Source: a virus
Strand: one strand, 5' to 3'
IMG/VR virus record: IMGVR_UViG_3300046522_000439
Location: 1 to 27,268 of that record
DNA length: 27,268 nucleotides
A program made the position numbers and the translations under genes. The notes beneath the pieces were generated by a model. That model saw only the letters and a program-made list of their open reading frames with translations. It was not told the DNA's origin and ran no database searches. Positions within the stretch are counted from its first letter, which is position 1; every line of letters starts with the position of its first letter. Below are positions 2,381 to 14,615 of this stretch, in pieces.

Positions 2381-4126
2381 ATGAGATCCGTTCTGCTGGC
2401 AGGCATCGCCTGCCTTTCGCTCGCCGCCTGCGCCACGACAACCTCTACCAACAACAATGCGGCGAGCGCCGTCGAAGCGGCAAAACAGGCCGAGCAGCCC
2501 TTCCCCAAGCAGAACTGGAAGCAGTTCGTCGATGCCAGCATCAAGGACTGGTTCGCCACCGACCCGTCCTTCGCGATCTACGAAGGCGCGCACGAATACG
2601 ACGGCAAGCTGCCCGATTGGAGCGAGGCTGGCCTCAAGGCACGCGCCGCGTTCCTGCACGCGGTGATCGACAAGGCCGCCACCTTCAGCGACCTCTCCGA
2701 TGCCGAACGCTTCGAGCGTGACTATCTGGTGCAGGTCGCCAAGGGCAACCTGTTCTGGCTGGAAGATGCGGACCTGCCGCACACCAACCCCGCCTTCTAC
2801 ATCAACGGCGGACTCGACCCGAACGTTTACGTCAGCCGCGACTATGCCGACAAGCCGACGCGGATGAAGGCGATGATCGCCTTCTTCAAGGCCGTACCCG
2901 CGCAGGCCGCCAACATCCGTGCCAACCTGCCCGGCGCCATGCCCGCGAGCTTCATCAAGCTGGGCAAGGACGGCTTCGGCGGCCTTGCCGGCTATTACCG
3001 CGGCGATGCCCGCGCCGCCTTCGAGGACGTGGCAGATCCCGCGCTCCAGACGGATTTCAGGGCATCGTCCGAGGCCGCTGCCACTGCCATGCAGGCCGTC
3101 GCCGACCAGGTGGCCAAGTCCAAACCGACACAGGGCTTCGCGATGGGCGCGGACAAGTTTGCGCGCATGCTCGCCGCCACCGAGGCGGTCGACGCCCCGC
3201 TCGACCAGCTGGAAGCCGCAGGCCGCGCCGATCTCCTGCGCAACCAGCAGGCGCTGAAGGCCGCCTGCGCGAAATTCGCGCCGGGCAAGACCATCCAGCA
3301 GTGCTTCGACAAGATGCGCGCCGACAAGCCCGCCGGCGGTCCCGTCGCCGAAGCCCGCCGCGAGATTCCCGAGCTGGCGGACTTCGTGCGCAAGAACGGT
3401 GTCGTCACGATCCCCGGCACCAAACTCGCGCAAGTAGAGGAGAGCCCGCCCTACAACCGCGCCAACTCCGCCTACATCGACCCGCCGGGACCGCTGGAGA
3501 ACGGCGGCTCGTCGATCTACTACATCTCCCCACCCGACCCGACGTGGTCGAAGCAGATGCAGATGGACTACATCCCCGGCAAGGCCGACCTGCTTTTCAC
3601 TACCGTGCACGAGGTCATGCCCGGCCACTACATCCAGTTCCTCCATTCGAACGCCGCGCCCTCGATCGTCGGCAAGCTCTTCGTCGGTTACGCCTATGCC
3701 GAAGGCTGGGCGCACTATGCCGAGGAAATGATGCTGGAGGCGGGCCTGGGCAACGGCGATCCGGGCATCCAGGTCGGGCAGATCTCCAACGCGCTGCTGC
3801 GCAACTGCCGCTATCTCTCCGCTATCGGCCTCCACGCGCGCGGGATGACGCAGGCGCAGTCGAAGACGATGTTCATGGAGCAGTGCTACCAGGACGAGGG
3901 CACCGCCGAGCAGCAGGCCGCGCGCGGGACCTACGATCCGGCCTACCTCAATTACACGCTGGGCAAGCTGATGATCCGCAAGCTGCGCACCGACTGGACC
4001 GCCACGCGCGGCGGTACCGCCTCATGGAAGGCGTTCCACGACGACTTCCTCAGCCGCGGGGGCCCGCCGATCCCGCTGGTCCGCGCGGCGATGATGAAGG
4101 AAGACGCGCCCCACGCGGTTTTCTGA
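2381..4126 (+). CDS. DUF885 family lipoprotein, predicted zinc metallopeptidase
   Basis: A 581-aa exported protein. The N-terminus has a short hydrophobic segment ending in the lipobox LAAC, with the lipidated cysteine at residue 17, so it is expected to be anchored in a membrane facing the periplasm. The catalytic-type motif HEVMPGHY (H410, E411, H416) resembles the HExxxGH metal-binding signature, and EGWAHYAEEMM (E441, H445) provides the likely third ligand. LNYTLGK near residue 528 is also characteristic of DUF885 proteins. Members of this family in sphingomonads and xanthomonads are usually annotated as DUF885 proteins of unknown substrate; peptidase activity is inferred. An AGGGAG-like ribosome-binding site lies about 10 nt upstream of the ATG. 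The stop is followed by a G+C-rich hairpin and then the tRNA fragment, so this is the last intact host gene before the prophage. Confidence 0.88.
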   Translation: MRSVLLAGIACLSLAACATTTSTNNNAASAVEAAKQAEQPFPKQNWKQFVDASIKDWFATDPSFAIYEGAHEYDGKLPDWSEAGLKARAAFLHAVIDKAATFSDLSDAERFERDYLVQVAKGNLFWLEDADLPHTNPAFYINGGLDPNVYVSRDYADKPTRMKAMIAFFKAVPAQAANIRANLPGAMPASFIKLGKDGFGGLAGYYRGDARAAFEDVADPALQTDFRASSEAAATAMQAVADQVAKSKPTQGFAMGADKFARMLAATEAVDAPLDQLEAAGRADLLRNQQALKAACAKFAPGKTIQQCFDKMRADKPAGGPVAEARREIPELADFVRKNGVVTIPGTKLAQVEESPPYNRANSAYIDPPGPLENGGSSIYYISPPDPTWSKQMQMDYIPGKADLLFTTVHEVMPGHYIQFLHSNAAPSIVGKLFVGYAYAEGWAHYAEEMMLEAGLGNGDPGIQVGQISNALLRNCRYLSAIGLHARGMTQAQSKTMFMEQCYQDEGTAEQQAARGTYDPAYLNYTLGKLMIRKLRTDWTATRGGTASWKAFHDDFLSRGGPPIPLVRAAMMKEDAPHAVF

Positions 4127-4280: not shown

Positions 4281-5333
4281 TCATTGTGCCTTGGATTGTG
4301 ACACACGCCTCGTTTTGCGCGGTTGCAGCATGGTCCCCACGCGGTCGAATGCGGTGTCCTTCGCATCCGGTTTGATGTGCGCATAGCGCATGGTGACAGC
4401 CACCGTGCTGTGGCCAAGCGCGTCACAGATGTCGGCAAGGTCGGAACCGTTCATGCGGGCCCAACTGGCGAACGTGTGGCGCAGGTCGTGGAAGTGGAAG
4501 TCGACCAGGGCTGCGGCTTTGAGCGCGGCGGCGAAGCGCTTCCTGAAGTTGGTTGTGTCGAACACCCTGCCCGTGCGCTCCTTCGGCGGGGTGCGGCCAA
4601 GCACGGCTGCGAGAGGCGGTGATATGCGGACAGCCAGCGGCTTGCGGCCCTTCGTGCGCGGGATCGTGATCGTACTACGGCCGAGGTCGATCTGGTGCCA
4701 ATCGAGGGAGAGGATGTTGTCTTTGCGCAGCCCGGTCGTGACGGCCGCGACGATGACCGCCTGGACGCTGGCATGCGCCCCCCGCAGCAGCCGCGTGTAT
4801 TCGTCGGTGCCGGCGTAGCGGATGCGATGCTCCGGCTCGGCCATGCGCAGTCGCTTCCATGCGAGCGCCGGGATTTGCTGGCCGTGCATCTCGTTCGCCC
4901 ATGTGAGGGCCGCCTTGAGGTAGGCGAGGTCACGGTTCACGGTCGAGGGGCTGACCTTGCCGAACTCCCGATCGCCGACCTTGATGGCGCCGCCGCGCCG
5001 GCACGCCCGGTAGTCCATCACCAGCGAGTTGGTGATGCTCAGGATCTCGGTATCTGCACCGAAGTGCGCGCTCAGAATCTCGAGCGAGCGGAAGATATCG
5101 TCCTCGGTGGTCCGGTGCTGGCCATGGTCTTCCCAGTAGGCGGCGAAGCACTCGCGAATCCGCCACGCGGCCGGCTTGTTCAGCCCCGCGCGCAGCTTCT
5201 GCTCCGTCTCGGCCTCTACAAGCCGCGCTTTCCTCTCGTTCGTCTCGCCTGTACTGCCTCGAAATCGAGGACGGCCGGGGACGGAGATCGACATCCAGTA
5301 ATGCGGGGAGCCTTTGCGGGTGTAGATTGGCAT
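4281..5333 (-). CDS. int: Phage tyrosine-recombinase integrase
   Basis: This 350-aa site-specific recombinase catalyses prophage integration and excision. The catalytic set is visible: Arg in TTGLRKDN (R203), the beta-hairpin Lys in RTKGRKP (K228), HDLRHTFASW (H282, R285), GHST (H308) and the nucleophile in MRYAHI (Y317). The N-terminal MPIYTRKGSPHYW beta-strand segment is typical of DUF4102-lacking phage integrases and supports the ATG at 5333. A longer reading to 5462 is open, but its extra 43 residues are out-of-frame sequence of the HTH gene and look non-protein-like. The stop lies 28 nt from the tRNA-Thr junction, the expected place beside attL. The gene is last in the long leftward early operon and overlaps the excisionase-like gene by 118 nt. 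Confidence 0.95.
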   Translation of the reverse strand: MPIYTRKGSPHYWMSISVPGRPRFRGSTGETNERKARLVEAETEQKLRAGLNKPAAWRIRECFAAYWEDHGQHRTTEDDIFRSLEILSAHFGADTEILSITNSLVMDYRACRRGGAIKVGDREFGKVSPSTVNRDLAYLKAALTWANEMHGQQIPALAWKRLRMAEPEHRIRYAGTDEYTRLLRGAHASVQAVIVAAVTTGLRKDNILSLDWHQIDLGRSTITIPRTKGRKPLAVRISPPLAAVLGRTPPKERTGRVFDTTNFRKRFAAALKAAALVDFHFHDLRHTFASWARMNGSDLADICDALGHSTVAVTMRYAHIKPDAKDTAFDRVGTMLQPRKTRRVSQSKAQ

Positions 5334-5521
5334 GTGCGCTGGCTTTCGACGAAGGCTTGCAGATCGTCGAGGGTATACCTGATTCCCGACTTCATCTGGA
5401 CGTACGTAATTTTTCCCTCCTGCCGCAAGGCGCGCAGCGTTCGGGTGCAGACGGAAAGCCACTGCGCGGCTTCGGCCTCCCTCAAAAGCCGGGGTGGAAT
5501 ATGGACGCGGTCTGCGGTCAT
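5216..5521 (-). CDS. Excisionase-like helix-turn-helix DNA-binding protein
   Basis: A 101-aa protein whose first ~60 residues form a MerR/AlpA/Xis-type winged HTH: PPRLLREAEAAQWLSVCTRT, then LRALRQEGKITYVQMKSG and IRYTLDDLQAFVES. Such proteins bind att-site DNA and bias integrases to excision, or act as operon regulators. The start at 5521 (MTADRVHIPP) overlaps the previous stop as ATGA, which decides it over an ATG 15 nt upstream. The last ~40 residues (rich in Arg, Ser and Pro) are read from the same DNA as the integrase N-terminus in another frame, so the C-terminus may be under little selection. Function as Xis is inferred from position next to int. Confidence 0.8.
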   Translation of the reverse strand: MTADRVHIPPRLLREAEAAQWLSVCTRTLRALRQEGKITYVQMKSGIRYTLDDLQAFVESQRTCQSTPAKAPRITGCRSPSPAVLDFEAVQARRTRGKRGL

Positions 5522-5727
5522 CGGTTGGCCGCGCAATCGGTCCCGACCACGAAAGGATCGCCCAGCGGGTCGGGTCGGGCCACGCTGACAGTGTTATCCT
5601 GCCTACGCCCGCCCTTGCCGCCCGAAAACGGGATGCGCTTCGGAGCAGTGCATGCGCACAGGTCCATGCAGAAACCCGCGTAGTCCTCGTAGCCAGTGTC
5701 AGCGCAGTTGGCGCACCTCGGGTTCAT
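5518..5727 (-). CDS. Small cysteine-rich protein, possible zinc knuckle
   Basis: A 69-aa protein with a compact Cys cluster near the N-terminus: CANCADTGYEDYAGFCMDLC then AC, i.e. CxxC plus CxxxCxC, suited to binding one Zn ion. The ATG at 5727 overlaps the stop of the upstream methyltransferase-like gene (ATGA), and its own stop overlaps the HTH gene start in the same way. This strongly supports both the reading frame and translational coupling. No family recognised; likely a phage early accessory protein. Confidence 0.7.
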   Translation of the reverse strand: MNPRCANCADTGYEDYAGFCMDLCACTAPKRIPFSGGKGGRRQDNTVSVARPDPLGDPFVVGTDCAANR

Positions 5728-6419
5728 GCGGCCTGCGCCTCGTGCGCCGGGAACAGGTCCAGTTGTTCGGGTTCGACATGGTCGGAGAGTAACGCACCCC
5801 ACTGAGATGCCATGGCGAGCGCAGGGCCTGGGAAAGTCTGGCTCCGGAATTTCGCGCGGTCTGGCCCCGGCGCTGCCCTGTGAATTGCGCTCCATGCCTT
5901 GTGCTCGGCCGTTCCGGGCCGAGGCGGCGTCAGGCGGTTCGTCGCGCGCAGCGGAGGCAAGTCGATAAGCTCAAGACCGGTGGCTTTGAAGAAGGGGTCA
6001 CCGAACCACCATGGCTGGATGAACTGCACTTTACCGCGCCGTGTGAGCCGGATCGCGTGCTTATGCATGATGGGGTTTTCAACGGCCTTGCGCGGGATGC
6101 TCTTTGCATCGCGCAGCGTACGGTAGAATGCAGCCGCTTCATCCAGTTCCGCCCAGCGCTGCGGGTCCGGTCCATTCTCTTCCCGGCCGTCGATGTAGAG
6201 CCAGCGCGCACCCGAGTTGCAAAGAAGCGGGCACGGGGGATGCATCACCGCGAGCAAATCCCAGCCATCGTCAAGGTGGTCGCGAACGTCACCGCGTATG
6301 TGCCGATTGCTGCCGTCATCTGCCGGCTCGAGGTCGCACGACCAGGCATCGTGCCCGGCAGCTATGAAGGCCCGCCGAACGACGCCGGAGCGCTCGCAGG
6401 CGATCAGCACGCGGCCCAT
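5724..6419 (-). CDS. Mini DNA cytosine-C5 methyltransferase-like protein
   Basis: A 231-aa protein with a C5-methyltransferase-type core. It starts with a SAM-binding-like strand-loop (VLIACERSGVVRRAFIAAGH followed by an acidic strand end CDLEPAD). It then has a PPC motif IV equivalent (HPPCPLLC, C63) and an ENP motif VI equivalent (AVENPI, E114-N115-P116). The target-recognition domain and motifs VIII-X of full-length enzymes (usually over 300 aa) are not present. Related proteins are common in sphingomonad phages and are often annotated as DNA cytosine methyltransferases. Role inferred: phage DNA modification or anti-restriction. Activity is uncertain because of the short length. It is coupled by overlaps on both sides. 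Confidence 0.7.
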   Translation of the reverse strand: MGRVLIACERSGVVRRAFIAAGHDAWSCDLEPADDGSNRHIRGDVRDHLDDGWDLLAVMHPPCPLLCNSGARWLYIDGREENGPDPQRWAELDEAAAFYRTLRDAKSIPRKAVENPIMHKHAIRLTRRGKVQFIQPWWFGDPFFKATGLELIDLPPLRATNRLTPPRPGTAEHKAWSAIHRAAPGPDRAKFRSQTFPGPALAMASQWGALLSDHVEPEQLDLFPAHEAQAA

Positions 6420-11229: not shown

Positions 11230-11684
11230 TTTCGTCCGTCCTCCGCTTCCTTCTGGTCCAGCGTGGCCAGACCGTCCGTCAGGCTTTCGATGGCTTCATG
11301 AACTTCCTGCCGGGCGCGGCGCCTGGCGCGCGGATCGCTCGAGCTGCTGGCCGTGATGAGGGCAGCGACTGCCTCCCCGGTTTCTTTGGCCGCCTTGCCG
11401 GCGACCGCCGCGAGGCAATGATCGGGACCGTCCCGCCCGGCGAGATCGAGCCGCAGCGCGTTGAGGCGGTGAAAGGGTGCGTGATCGCCGCCGTGCTCCA
11501 TGAAGGCGCGGTCAAGGCGCTCGGCGTCGATGAGGCGGATCTCGGTCTCGCAGTCCGGGTCTGACCAGTAGCGAACTGCGCGCTCGGTCACGCCGCAGAT
11601 GGCGGCGCAGCGATCCCAACCGATCCGCCCGGCTATTTCGGTCAGCGTCAGCTGATAGGTGAGAGGCTCGCGGCGCTTCGTCAC
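11226..11684 (-). CDS. CII-like helix-turn-helix regulatory protein
   Basis: A 152-aa protein with an N-terminal HTH (LTLTEIAGRIGWDRCAAICG, then VTERAVRYWSDPD) followed by a segment (HGGDHAPFHRLNAL) reminiscent of phage CII/CP76-type regulators, and a helical, Ala/Arg-rich C-terminus. Such proteins act in the lysis-lysogeny decision. The GTG at 11684 overlaps the Cro-like gene's stop. Being second in the early operon fits a regulator; the CII assignment is by position and HTH only. Confidence 0.62.
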   Translation of the reverse strand: MTKRREPLTYQLTLTEIAGRIGWDRCAAICGVTERAVRYWSDPDCETEIRLIDAERLDRAFMEHGGDHAPFHRLNALRLDLAGRDGPDHCLAAVAGKAAKETGEAVAALITASSSSDPRARRRARQEVHEAIESLTDGLATLDQKEAEDGRK

Positions 11685-12025
11685 AGGGAAGCCCTCTTCA
11701 TTTGCGTTAAGTTATTGCAAGAGACGCGGCCTGCGCGGGCATCTACCCCCACTTGGCGGACACCGACGCGCTGATCGACGCCGGACCAACGAGAGGACGC
11801 CTCCAGCATTTCGACAGGGTAGATATCGGGGCGAATAGAATGACGCGAAACGCCATAGAGCTGCTCGGAAAGCAGCACGAACTCGGCGGGCATTTGCTTG
11901 GACTGATTGATCCAGCGCCACACTTTCGGTTGCGGCACGCCCAGGTCGCGAGCCATCTGACTATCGCTTCCAGCCCGATTTCGGCAGAGGACCAGCGCCT
12001 CGTAGCGGGAGATTTCTTCATCCAT
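11681..12025 (-). CDS. Cro/YdaS-like repressor, first gene of the early operon
   Basis: A 114-aa DNA-binding protein. The HTH is in AGSDSQMARDLGVPQPKVWR, followed by WINQSKQMPAEFVLLSEQLYG and then VSRHSIRPDIYP, the VxRxxIRPDIYP ending typical of Cro/YdaS-type HTH proteins. The C-terminal ~40 residues after this are less typical. The ATG at 12025 lies only 7 nt after a -10 hexamer, suggesting a leaderless mRNA; an open frame runs further upstream into the operators but is not credible. It diverges from the CI-like gene and should compete with it for the operators at 12034-12098. Confidence 0.8.
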   Translation of the reverse strand: MDEEISRYEALVLCRNRAGSDSQMARDLGVPQPKVWRWINQSKQMPAEFVLLSEQLYGVSRHSIRPDIYPVEMLEASSRWSGVDQRVGVRQVGVDARAGRVSCNNLTQMKRASL

Positions 12026-12032
12026 GAAGCGC

Positions 12033-12060
12033 TCTATACAGAACCGTATAGATGGGTCAA
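12033..12060 (-). promoter_or_regulatory. Leftward early promoter (Cro-like operon)
   Basis: On the - strand, TTGACC (12060-12055) and TATAGA (12038-12033) are separated by 16 nt, a near-consensus sigma70-type pair. The ATG of the Cro-like gene begins 8 nt after the -10, so the transcript is predicted to be leaderless or nearly so. Operator 12034-12051 covers the -10. Confidence 0.7.
12034..12051. promoter_or_regulatory. Operator 1: CTATAC-N6-GTATAG
   Basis: A perfect 6-bp inverted repeat with a 6-nt spacer (AGAACC), overlapping the -10 of the leftward early promoter. It matches the site at 12081-12098 in spacing and sequence, so it is most likely bound by the CI-like and/or Cro-like protein to repress the lytic operon. 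Confidence 0.78.
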
Positions 12061-12080
12061 CGAATTTGTAGAGTGTGCCG

Positions 12081-12098
12081 CTATTCAAATTCGTATAG
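12081..12098. promoter_or_regulatory. Operator 2: CTATTC-N6-GTATAG
   Basis: An 18-bp site of the same form as operator 1 with one mismatch in the left arm, overlapping the -10 candidate of the rightward repressor promoter. A weaker third copy may lie between them at 12056-12073 (GTAGAG arm with a GAATTT spacer, reverse orientation). The lower symmetry fits a weaker site for repressor autoregulation. Confidence 0.72.
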
Positions 12099-12099
12099 G
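12094..12099 (+). promoter_or_regulatory. Rightward -10 for the repressor operon
   Basis: TATAGG lies 8 nt before the repressor ATG at 12108, with no good -35 at the proper distance. This resembles a weak maintenance promoter giving a leaderless repressor mRNA. Inference from sequence only. Confidence 0.4.
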
Positions 12100-12107
12100 T
12101 GCCGCGA

Positions 12108-12779
12108 ATGGCTGATATCGTTGGTTCGCGCCTAGAGTGGCTGCTTCAAGATCGTCATAAGAGCCAATCCGCCTTAGCGCGTGATTTGGGCGTTTCGCAG
12201 CCGACTGTCGGCCGCCTGATCTCTGGTGAGACCCGGGAAACGGGCAAGATTATCGAGCTTGCGAGAGCTCTCGGGACCACGCCCGAATATCTCATCGGCG
12301 AAACTGATGATGATGGCCCCTCGGCGCGCGTCGTGCTCGCTGCACCTAGCGACGACGATGATGAGATCGTCGAGATAATGGAACTCGACTTGGCTTTCGG
12401 CATGGGGGGCGGGAGTTATCTAGATCTGCCTGTAAGGCCGAAGGGGCGGAAGTTCGCCCGGGATTGGCTGCGCCTCTACACGAACTCGCCGCCTAGCCGG
12501 ATATTCCTGGCCCGGGGGATTGGGGACTCCATGGCTCCCACGATCCAGAACGATGATGTGGTCATTATTGACACAGCTGAAGATGCGGTACGCATAGGCG
12601 ACCAAATCTGGGCCGTAGCATACGGAAATTTTGGATTGATCAAACGCCTTCGGCCGCTCCCGAGCGGAGGGATCAAGATCATGTCCGACAATCCGCTCGT
12701 TGAATCTGAAATAGCCTACGACGGTGAACTGCATACGATTGGGAAGGTGGTGGCAGTAGTTCGGAAAATGGCAGGCTGA
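12108..12779 (+). CDS. CI-like phage repressor (HTH plus S24 LexA-type domain)
   Basis: A 223-aa repressor. The N-terminal HTH_XRE domain (QSALARDLGVSQPTVGRLIS) binds the operators upstream. The C-terminal S24 peptidase-like domain has the serine motif GIGDSMAPTI (S141) and the general-base lysine in LIKRL (K179), the dyad used for self-cleavage in LexA/CI. No Ala-Gly or Cys-Gly pair is seen in the linker (residues ~60-135); the nearest candidate is FG in DLAFGMGGGS. The ATG at 12108 is preferred over an in-frame GTG at 12099, because the GTG lies inside the -10/operator. Base composition of this and the next two genes appears lower in G+C than the flanks. It maintains lysogeny by repressing the leftward operon. 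Confidence 0.9.
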   Translation: MADIVGSRLEWLLQDRHKSQSALARDLGVSQPTVGRLISGETRETGKIIELARALGTTPEYLIGETDDDGPSARVVLAAPSDDDDEIVEIMELDLAFGMGGGSYLDLPVRPKGRKFARDWLRLYTNSPPSRIFLARGIGDSMAPTIQNDDVVIIDTAEDAVRIGDQIWAVAYGNFGLIKRLRPLPSGGIKIMSDNPLVESEIAYDGELHTIGKVVAVVRKMAG

Positions 12780-13234
12780 TGCCGTTCGACACTCCGCTTC
12801 CGCCTCTATCGCTTGCAGTCGTCGGAATCGAATTCGACAACAGCGACGGATCTAACCGCCGGTTCGCCATGGCTATGTGCAGCATTGGCGATCCAATCGA
12901 GCTACGCTTGGAGCCTAAGAACCCGGCCGACGAAAACGCGGTCGCCGTTTACAATTCAGCGGGAATGCAGCTCGGCTACATCACCTCGATCCGCGCCGTC
13001 CGCATCAGCGCATTGATACGTGAGGGCCGAGAGCTGCAGGCCGTGTTCCAACGCCGCACGGAGTTTGGTGCATGGATCCGGGTGGCATTCGATGGCGAGG
13101 CGCCCGTCCTTACGGCGGCCATGATCGAAGAGAGCAATTCCCCTCGTCCGCATCGGAAGCGCCTCGATTTGGACAGCCAGGTCAGGGATGATGAGCCAGA
13201 TTTCTACCCGGACGAGGTATGGCCGGATGACTGA
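12779..13234 (+). CDS. Stand-alone HIRAN-domain protein
   Basis: A 151-aa protein with a HIRAN domain: LAVVGIEFDN, RRFAMAMCSIGDPIELRLEP, KNPADENAVAVYNSAGMQLG, YITSIRA. The KNPxDxNAVAV....LGYI core is diagnostic. HIRAN domains bind 3' ends of single-stranded DNA and are usually fused to helicases (HLTF/Rad5) or nucleases; here it is alone, followed by an acidic tail (DDEPDFYPDEVWPDD). The ATG overlaps the repressor stop as TGATG, so it is translated with the repressor in the lysogen. Candidate role: surveillance of foreign DNA ends or superinfection immunity. This is inferred from co-expression only. Confidence 0.8.
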   Translation: MPFDTPLPPLSLAVVGIEFDNSDGSNRRFAMAMCSIGDPIELRLEPKNPADENAVAVYNSAGMQLGYITSIRAVRISALIREGRELQAVFQRRTEFGAWIRVAFDGEAPVLTAAMIEESNSPRPHRKRLDLDSQVRDDEPDFYPDEVWPDD

Positions 13235-13245
13235 GGGGGCGAGGC

Positions 13246-13623
13246 ATGAAGTTCATGGTCCAGCTAAAGGCTCGCATCGATCGTTGGTTCGACGAGCAAC
13301 AAGTCGCTCTTGATCAGCGCAAGGCCGAAGAGCGAAGCGGAACGCAAATACTTGATGAAATCGCGCGCAAGGAGCGGCTCGGCGTGGAGGGCCGCCTGCT
13401 GGAGCACTTCAAGGCCTATCGCACAGGTGCGATCGACCTCGACGATTATCGTGCCGAGATCATGTTCGAACGAGAGGGCGTCAAGGAGGCAATGAAGGAC
13501 TTGCGGGCGAACAGGAAGCACATCGCATCCGGTGACTTCGAGGAGCAAATGATGGCTCTTGAAGAGGACTTGGACGATACGGCCTGGCGGCTTGAATGGG
13601 TGAACGAGCAGCGAAATAATTAA
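13246..13623 (+). CDS. Charged alpha-helical protein of the lysogenic operon
   Basis: A 125-aa, strongly charged protein that appears to be almost wholly helical, with long E/K/R/D-rich stretches (DEQQVALDQRKAEERSG; FEEQMMALEEDLDDTAWRLE) suggestive of coiled coils. It has no signal peptide or membrane segment. It follows the HIRAN gene after 11 nt with a purine-rich GAGGGGGCGAGG ribosome-binding region, so it is probably co-transcribed with the repressor. Its TAA overlaps the convergent gene D stop by 4 nt. No family recognised. Confidence 0.72.
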   Translation: MKFMVQLKARIDRWFDEQQVALDQRKAEERSGTQILDEIARKERLGVEGRLLEHFKAYRTGAIDLDDYRAEIMFEREGVKEAMKDLRANRKHIASGDFEEQMMALEEDLDDTAWRLEWVNEQRNN

Positions 13624-14615
13624 ACGCTTTCCAGCGAAATCCGCTGCTTGATGCCCGCGTTGCCCATGCTCGTATCGATCGACGCCACCAGCCATTGGAC
13701 GGCGTCGATCTTCGGGTTCCAGCCCGATAGCGTCACCCGCAGATTTGTCTGCAGGCGGGTGTCGGCGACAGCCAGCTCGTACTCGAACTGGTAGACGCCC
13801 CGCTTGCGCTTCGACGCCTCGGCCTCGGCCGCCTGTTTCGCCTCGGCCTCGCTGGCATAATTCCGCTTCAGGCGCTTCGCCTTGCTGCCGCCCGTAGAGA
13901 CCTTTTTGCGCTTCCCGCTGTCCTGGTCGTGCCAGGTGGCCTCGGCGCCGTCGTAGTCATCGCGCTGGGCGCGGGTGAAGCGCCAGGACCAGCCATCGCG
14001 CTTGGTCAGGGTGACGGCCGCCAGTTCCCTGCCGCTGGCGGTGGTGGTGCTGCCGATCGGCATGAAGACGAGCTTGCGGTCCTTCCACGTCGCGACGGCG
14101 TCGTAGCGGCTCCCGAGATCCTTCACGAGCACCATGTCGCTCTTGCCGTGCTGGTCGAGCGCCGCGACGGCCTTGCCCGCGAGATCGGAGTGGACCTGCG
14201 CCGTGATTGCGTTGCGGCTCGCGATCTGCTCGAGGATCGCGCCGAGGGTGGTGTCCTTCCACACCTGCGTCCGCCGCTTGCGGTAATCGCCGTTGAGGTC
14301 GGCCGAGCGGGCAGTGATCCGGATCTGGTCGGGCGGGCCGGTCGGTTCTACCTCGTCCACGGTGAAGCGGCCCTTGTCGACCAGGCCAACAGGCACGCTC
14401 GAGCCCGAGATCCAGCCCAGCGCGAGCGACAACACCTTGCCCGGCTCGGGAATGTCGAGCTTGCCGTCCGCGTTCTGCAGGGTGAGCGACAGCTCGTCGG
14501 CCTCGCCGCCGCGCTTCTCCGACAGCGACAGCTCGACGAACCGCGGATTGATCTTGTCCGCCAGATCCGCGCCGTCCAGCGTGAGCCGCAGCCCGGCGAT
14601 GTTCGCGTCTGCCAT
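13620..14615 (-). CDS. Late control D protein (tail baseplate hub, GpD)
   Basis: A 331-aa P2 GpD-type protein, the central hub of the contractile-tail baseplate (gp27-like fold). It has ADKINPRFVELSLSEKRGGEAD near the N-terminus and GPPDQIRITARSADLNG, RKRRTQVWKDTTLGAILEQI in the middle, all typical of phage late control D proteins. A Lys/Ala-rich segment (residues ~235-275) precedes the last beta domain. Its ATG overlaps the U gene stop as TGATG. It is the last gene of the late tail operon and meets the lysogenic operon tail-to-tail at 13620-13623. Confidence 0.93.
   Translation of the reverse strand: MADANIAGLRLTLDGADLADKINPRFVELSLSEKRGGEADELSLTLQNADGKLDIPEPGKVLSLALGWISGSSVPVGLVDKGRFTVDEVEPTGPPDQIRITARSADLNGDYRKRRTQVWKDTTLGAILEQIASRNAITAQVHSDLAGKAVAALDQHGKSDMVLVKDLGSRYDAVATWKDRKLVFMPIGSTTTASGRELAAVTLTKRDGWSWRFTRAQRDDYDGAEATWHDQDSGKRKKVSTGGSKAKRLKRNYASEAEAKQAAEAEASKRKRGVYQFEYELAVADTRLQTNLRVTLSGWNPKIDAVQWLVASIDTSMGNAGIKQRISLESV

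Follow-up and report, generated by a model that had tools for sequence, protein, structure and literature searches.

The window, the whole stretch of 27,268 bases analyzed here (IMGVR_UViG_3300046522_000439), contains an integrated P2-like prophage. By gene content its first 4.1 kb are host chromosome, where the genes beside the prophage (5–1327 and 2381–4126) encode an MgsA/RarA-type AAA+ ATPase and a DUF885 protein. Beyond the integrase, the prophage encodes a primase, an activator of the Ogr/Delta type, and HTH regulators, and it contains the repressor operon as well as genes for tail, lysis, and fibres; a phage DNA methyltransferase (phrog_757) is encoded at 5724–6419. The features discussed below are as follows.

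4281–5462: integrase gene, after the host-chromosome part of the window
11681–12088, minus strand: Cro-like HTH gene, divergent from the repressor gene (PF15943 YdaS-like, 9.2e-14; phrog_35, 4.3e-10)
12099–12779, plus strand, starting at GTG 12099 or ATG 12108: S24/HTH prophage repressor P0001 (Peptidase_S24, 4.4e-13; HTH_3, 6.5e-8; phrog_4 repressor, 4.9e-42)
12779–13234, plus strand: stand-alone HIRAN protein P0002, 151 aa, with a C-terminal peptide (PF08797; fold match to HLTF HIRAN)
12857–12931, plus strand: HIRAN codons 27–51, predicted counterpart of the HLTF 3'-end pocket (R27, F29, N48, D51), by residue conservation
13190–13231, plus strand: HIRAN codons 138–151, conserved C-terminal peptide EPDFYPDEVWPDD
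13246–13623, plus strand: charged helical protein P0003, 125 aa, variable-slot cargo (four helices by AlphaFold2; one relative)
13620–14615, minus strand: gpD-like tail/baseplate hub gene, slot boundary, convergent with the repressor operon (phrog_52, 3.6e-105; Phage_GPD, 3.3e-10)

The stop codon of the repressor and the start codon of the HIRAN gene overlap in the sequence TGATG, which bears out the translational coupling proposed in the initial annotation and from which we infer that the two proteins are co-expressed in the lysogen. The helical ORF starts 11 bases past the HIRAN gene on the same strand, with GAGGGGG about 9 bases upstream of its ATG, and its 3' end abuts the convergent gpD gene. 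Third-position GC is 0.62–0.71 in the repressor, HIRAN, and helical genes versus 0.91 in gpD, a low value that fits mobile cargo.

P0002 was initially described as a stand-alone HIRAN protein, and this description holds. The protein scores above the Pfam curated cut-off for PF08797 (E 1.2e-9; 38.3 bits versus 24.7), and its residues 10–132 match phrog_27141 (E 5e-32). In its AlphaFold2 model, pLDDT is about 96 for the domain, drops to about 57 for the linker, and rises again to 75–78 for the tail; a fold search with this model returned 4xzf, 4s0n, 5bnh, and 3k2y (lp_0118) with a probability of 1.00 and E values of about 3e-6 to 2e-5, those for the DNA-containing HLTF HIRAN structures (4xzf and 4s0n) being about 3e-6 to 6e-6. 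Searches by protein and by alignment recovered relatives in 80 viral loci and two genome loci (L002–L083), giving 83 sequences with the window copy; this set includes near-duplicates, and the non-redundant subset comprises 59. R27, N48, and D51 are invariant in all 59 and F29 is present in 53. When aligned to HLTF, N48 corresponds to N91 and D51 to D94, the residue that touches the 3'-OH in HLTF, while the position of Y72 is occupied by F in 53/59. In HLTF, Y72 and Y93 border the dinucleotide pocket, and an NN90,91AA mutant did not bind any DNA substrate tested (PMC4666394). Relative to the HLTF/Rad5 HIRAN domains (PF08797), the prophage protein has the same predicted fold and keeps the equivalents of N91 and D94, but it stands alone, without a helicase, it carries an added conserved C-terminal peptide, and its equivalent of Y93 (residue 50) is variable (A, H, F, K, and others), so that one side of the dinucleotide sandwich is not retained. 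Fold and residue conservation together lead us to predict an affinity of the prophage domain for free 3' DNA ends. The slot of one HIRAN-bearing locus encodes another HIRAN-like protein (L015:5198–5770; 190 aa), which scores slightly below the Pfam cut-off.

Other bacterial HIRAN domains, in the HipN and HipL proteins of hip toxin-antitoxin operons, have been proposed to sense phage DNA ends; these are fused to a HipS-like domain and occur next to or within a kinase (PMC8262856), whereas the prophage protein has a HIRAN match only. No HipS-like domain was matched in Pfam or PHROGs, and there is no kinase among the neighbouring genes scanned around the prophage HIRAN. Similarity to the PADLOC model of the phage-defence candidate PDC-M03B (E 3.6e-8) is confined to the HIRAN part, residues 16–89 aligning with positions 136–209 of 232; the PDC-M03B proteins are longer (232–250 positions), and the match does not extend over the whole model.

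The tail of the HIRAN protein consists of the C-terminal peptide DFYPDEVWPDD, which follows a variable linker, and its last 11–13 residues are the best-conserved stretch outside the domain. The tail motif is present in 53 of the 59 non-redundant relatives, a sample biased toward the tail by the inclusion of [ED]PDFYPD, a part of it, among the search patterns; the literal pattern is missing from about 37 of the 59, so that these were retrieved through different patterns, yet about 31 of them have the motif all the same. Among 33,877 stop-to-stop frames, the motif was not found in any non-HIRAN ORF of the loci. When 44 pairs of similar genes, not independent of one another, are pooled, dN/dS is 0.086 in the tail, 0.108 in the domain, and 0.253 in the linker. 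The acidic tail noted in the initial annotation is therefore real and conserved, and it is under selection as strong as that on the folded domain.

SSB-type proteins combine an OB-like DNA-binding domain, a variable linker, and a conserved acidic C-terminal docking tip. The architecture of the HIRAN protein is alike, although the fold family and the tip sequence differ, so the comparison extends only to how such a protein might work; no SSB match for the HIRAN protein was obtained in Pfam, in PHROGs, or by fold search. Alternatively, the tail could act as an internal DNA mimic that sits in the end-binding groove and regulates binding by its own domain, a role that would be compatible with docking. 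Its acidic and aromatic character and the rise in pLDDT between linker and tail, as if the tail were placed on something, are consistent with such a mimic. However, the most constant tail positions are F/W142, Y/W143, P144, D145, and W/Y148, that is, not acids alone, which suits a docking peptide, and we consider the mimic rather unlikely.

In a single-sequence search, a same-strand S24 repressor was found upstream of HIRAN in 81/83 loci; of the other two, L060 is cut off near the start of its contig, and the repressor of L062 was found by profile. A repressor sequence was recovered from every one of the 59 non-redundant loci. The two genes mostly overlap or are adjacent, and the remainder have one or two genes between them. 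The reverse search, from the repressor, found HIRAN in 25 of the 73 closest loci with enough flanking sequence and none in the other 48; the operon thus occurs both with and without HIRAN, which is an optional component. Repressor and HIRAN are a recurrent pair whose linkage is one-sided, and an obligate cofactor role of HIRAN for the repressor is rejected by the same 48 loci. Matches to HIRAN at E ≤ 1e-3 occur in 41 of 401 Sphingomonadales genomes searched, and a class-wide draw of 385 genomes yielded no further genome with a match better than E 4e-21. The prophage-type copies in the Sphingomonadales genomes mostly retain the repressor, which is absent in L122–L124. Production of the HIRAN protein together with the repressor appears to be a feature of many temperate phages in sphingomonads. 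In the literature searched, we found no paper linking HIRAN to a prophage repressor.

A chromosomal clade (L127–L131, L133, L135, L136, L138, and L139) mostly lacks the S24 repressor and has a different C-terminal tip (...FYPDPDGPEWGA); most of its members have the FYPD core, and they end in GPEWGA. In L136 and L138, HIRAN lies, by reading, between the same two genes, which encode a 637–638-aa membrane protein and a RimO-like protein. The neighbourhoods of the type-2 chromosomal copies have no obvious defence theme, which counts against the reading preferred below. Since the FYPD core is kept in most of this clade without S24, the repressor is an unlikely partner of the tail, and we regard a repressor-docking function as improbable; the conservation pattern points to a different partner or to a role within the HIRAN protein itself. 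The existence of a related clade outside prophage repressor operons would also be expected if HIRAN were a passenger that does nothing specific to the phage, such as a DNA-repair accessory captured from the host and of general benefit to the lysogen. However, a midpoint-rooted tree places the chromosomal clade inside the prophage forms. This speaks against host-to-phage capture and for the opposite direction, and a passenger would hardly show strong purifying selection and a fixed position across many diverged phages. We consider this explanation quite unlikely.

A further possibility is that HIRAN is a lysogeny regulator, which would sense DNA ends or damage and tune repressor stability or RecA access, thereby setting the threshold of induction. 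Its place directly after the repressor is nearly constant, it is translationally coupled to the repressor, and its divergence follows that of the repressor C-terminal domain (Spearman r 0.44 in P2-like loci and 0.29 in others) but not that of the HTH domain (r about 0) or gpD (0.13). This correlation could also be expected from physical linkage together with exchange of the HTH domain and operator, from which co-evolution is inseparable by distance correlation in these data. In the repressors of 58 HIRAN loci, divergence of the HTH domain and divergence of the C-terminal domain are unrelated (r 0.02–0.16), which suggests that the domains are exchanged at the inter-domain linker.

Among the 59 repressor relatives, the catalytic Ser of GDSM is invariant and the Lys is present in 95%; repressors from loci with and without HIRAN alike have the Ser throughout and the Lys nearly throughout. 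Almost all of them lack the usual Ala-Gly or Cys-Gly cleavage pair and have a conserved [M/L]-G in its place, rarely A-G. The loop expected to hold the autocleavage site is alike whether HIRAN is present (59 repressors) or absent (48 repressors), and compensation by HIRAN for a lost autocleavage site was rejected on this ground. The similarity of this region, the absence of HIRAN beside most of the closest repressors, and the retention of the tail core in HIRAN proteins without S24 all speak against a lysogeny regulator, which we regard as possible but doubtful.

The helical ORF has a coding-like codon-position GC profile (0.66/0.32/0.70), although an opposite-strand ORF at 13264–13695 has a similar profile and could itself be coding. 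AlphaFold2 predicts four helices (pLDDT 81, from a two-sequence alignment). No Pfam family matches the protein, no PHROG does so significantly, and a search with it found no relative in phage records, viral contigs, or 201 family genomes. The sole detectable relative is a slot protein of 204 aa (L168:4667–5281), whose N-terminal part is 34% identical. It was found by inspecting repressor loci; direct searches had missed it, and further remote relatives may exist. The HIRAN and helical proteins had been put forward as a dedicated two-gene immunity module, in keeping with their adjacency on the same strand, 11 bases apart. However, L168 has no HIRAN, and elsewhere unrelated genes, or none, come after HIRAN; at the repressor-adjacent positions of related phages, the pair is not kept together. 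We consider such a module very improbable: the helical protein is interchangeable slot cargo rather than a cognate partner of HIRAN.

The slot that holds this cargo lies behind the repressor, or behind HIRAN if present, and in P2-like loci is bounded by gpD. It was seen in several sphingomonad P2-like prophages (L012, L018, L119, L164, L168, L196, L204, L205, L215, and L230). Its cargo includes Ltp (PF07553; L012 and L018), a RelA/SpoT protein (L119), and zinc-ribbon membrane and NA37 proteins; HIRAN-less loci contain a CAP12/Pycsar-type TIR protein with AbiD (L215), a candidate KAP NTPase (L205), PDC-M41A (L230), an MTase-Mrr fusion (L204), and HicA (L196). The neighbourhood is thus rich in exclusion and defence genes. 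The Ltp prototype stops DNA injection by superinfecting phage (PMC3952083), and comparable prophage hotspots are known, one of which adjoins the cI repressor in Vibrionaceae (PMC9122126). The present slot resembles these systems in having variable anti-phage cargo beside a repressor or lysogeny module (PMC9122126, PMC3952083), but differs from the described hotspots in its borders, gpD on one side and an S24 repressor, alone or accompanied by HIRAN, on the other. We found no description of a slot in this location in the literature searched.

Taken at about even probability, our preferred reading is that the prophage HIRAN is a lysogen-expressed adaptor for DNA 3' ends that recruits another protein by its C-terminal tip. 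As an optional part of the repressor operon, the protein would be expressed in lysogens of Sphingomonadales temperate phages, and its OB-like HIRAN domain would grip free 3' DNA ends. The flexible linker would present the aromatic-acidic C-terminal peptide, which may dock on another protein, probably one of host DNA metabolism, in the manner of the SSB tip, and the docked protein would thereby be brought to DNA ends in the lysogen.

The benefit of such an adaptor would most likely be interference with the DNA of a rival phage, incoming or replicating. Superinfection exclusion is the likeliest purpose because the adjoining slot holds exclusion and defence genes, but it is still a tentative assignment. 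The position of HIRAN is fixed while the cargo varies, unlike ordinary defence cargo, and exclusion may therefore not be its purpose. Lysogeny control is a close rival for the same role, because of the fixed place of HIRAN and because its divergence follows the repressor C-terminal domain. A more specific version of exclusion, which we hold at low probability, couples the S24 repressor to a DNA-end sensor: HIRAN would detect the 3' ends of rival-phage DNA, injected or replicating, and call a host nuclease or a RecA/SSB-linked protein via its tip, which would constitute an undescribed form of repressor-encoded exclusion.

The repressor-adjacent slot gives ready access to exclusion and defence genes in bacteria that have been little studied for such genes. 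If the adaptor reading is true, prophages of a widespread group express a minimal two-part protein, an end-gripping domain with a recruiting peptide, together with the repressor; the 14-residue tip would then be a direct bait for its partner, and the action of bacterial HIRAN proteins would become testable.
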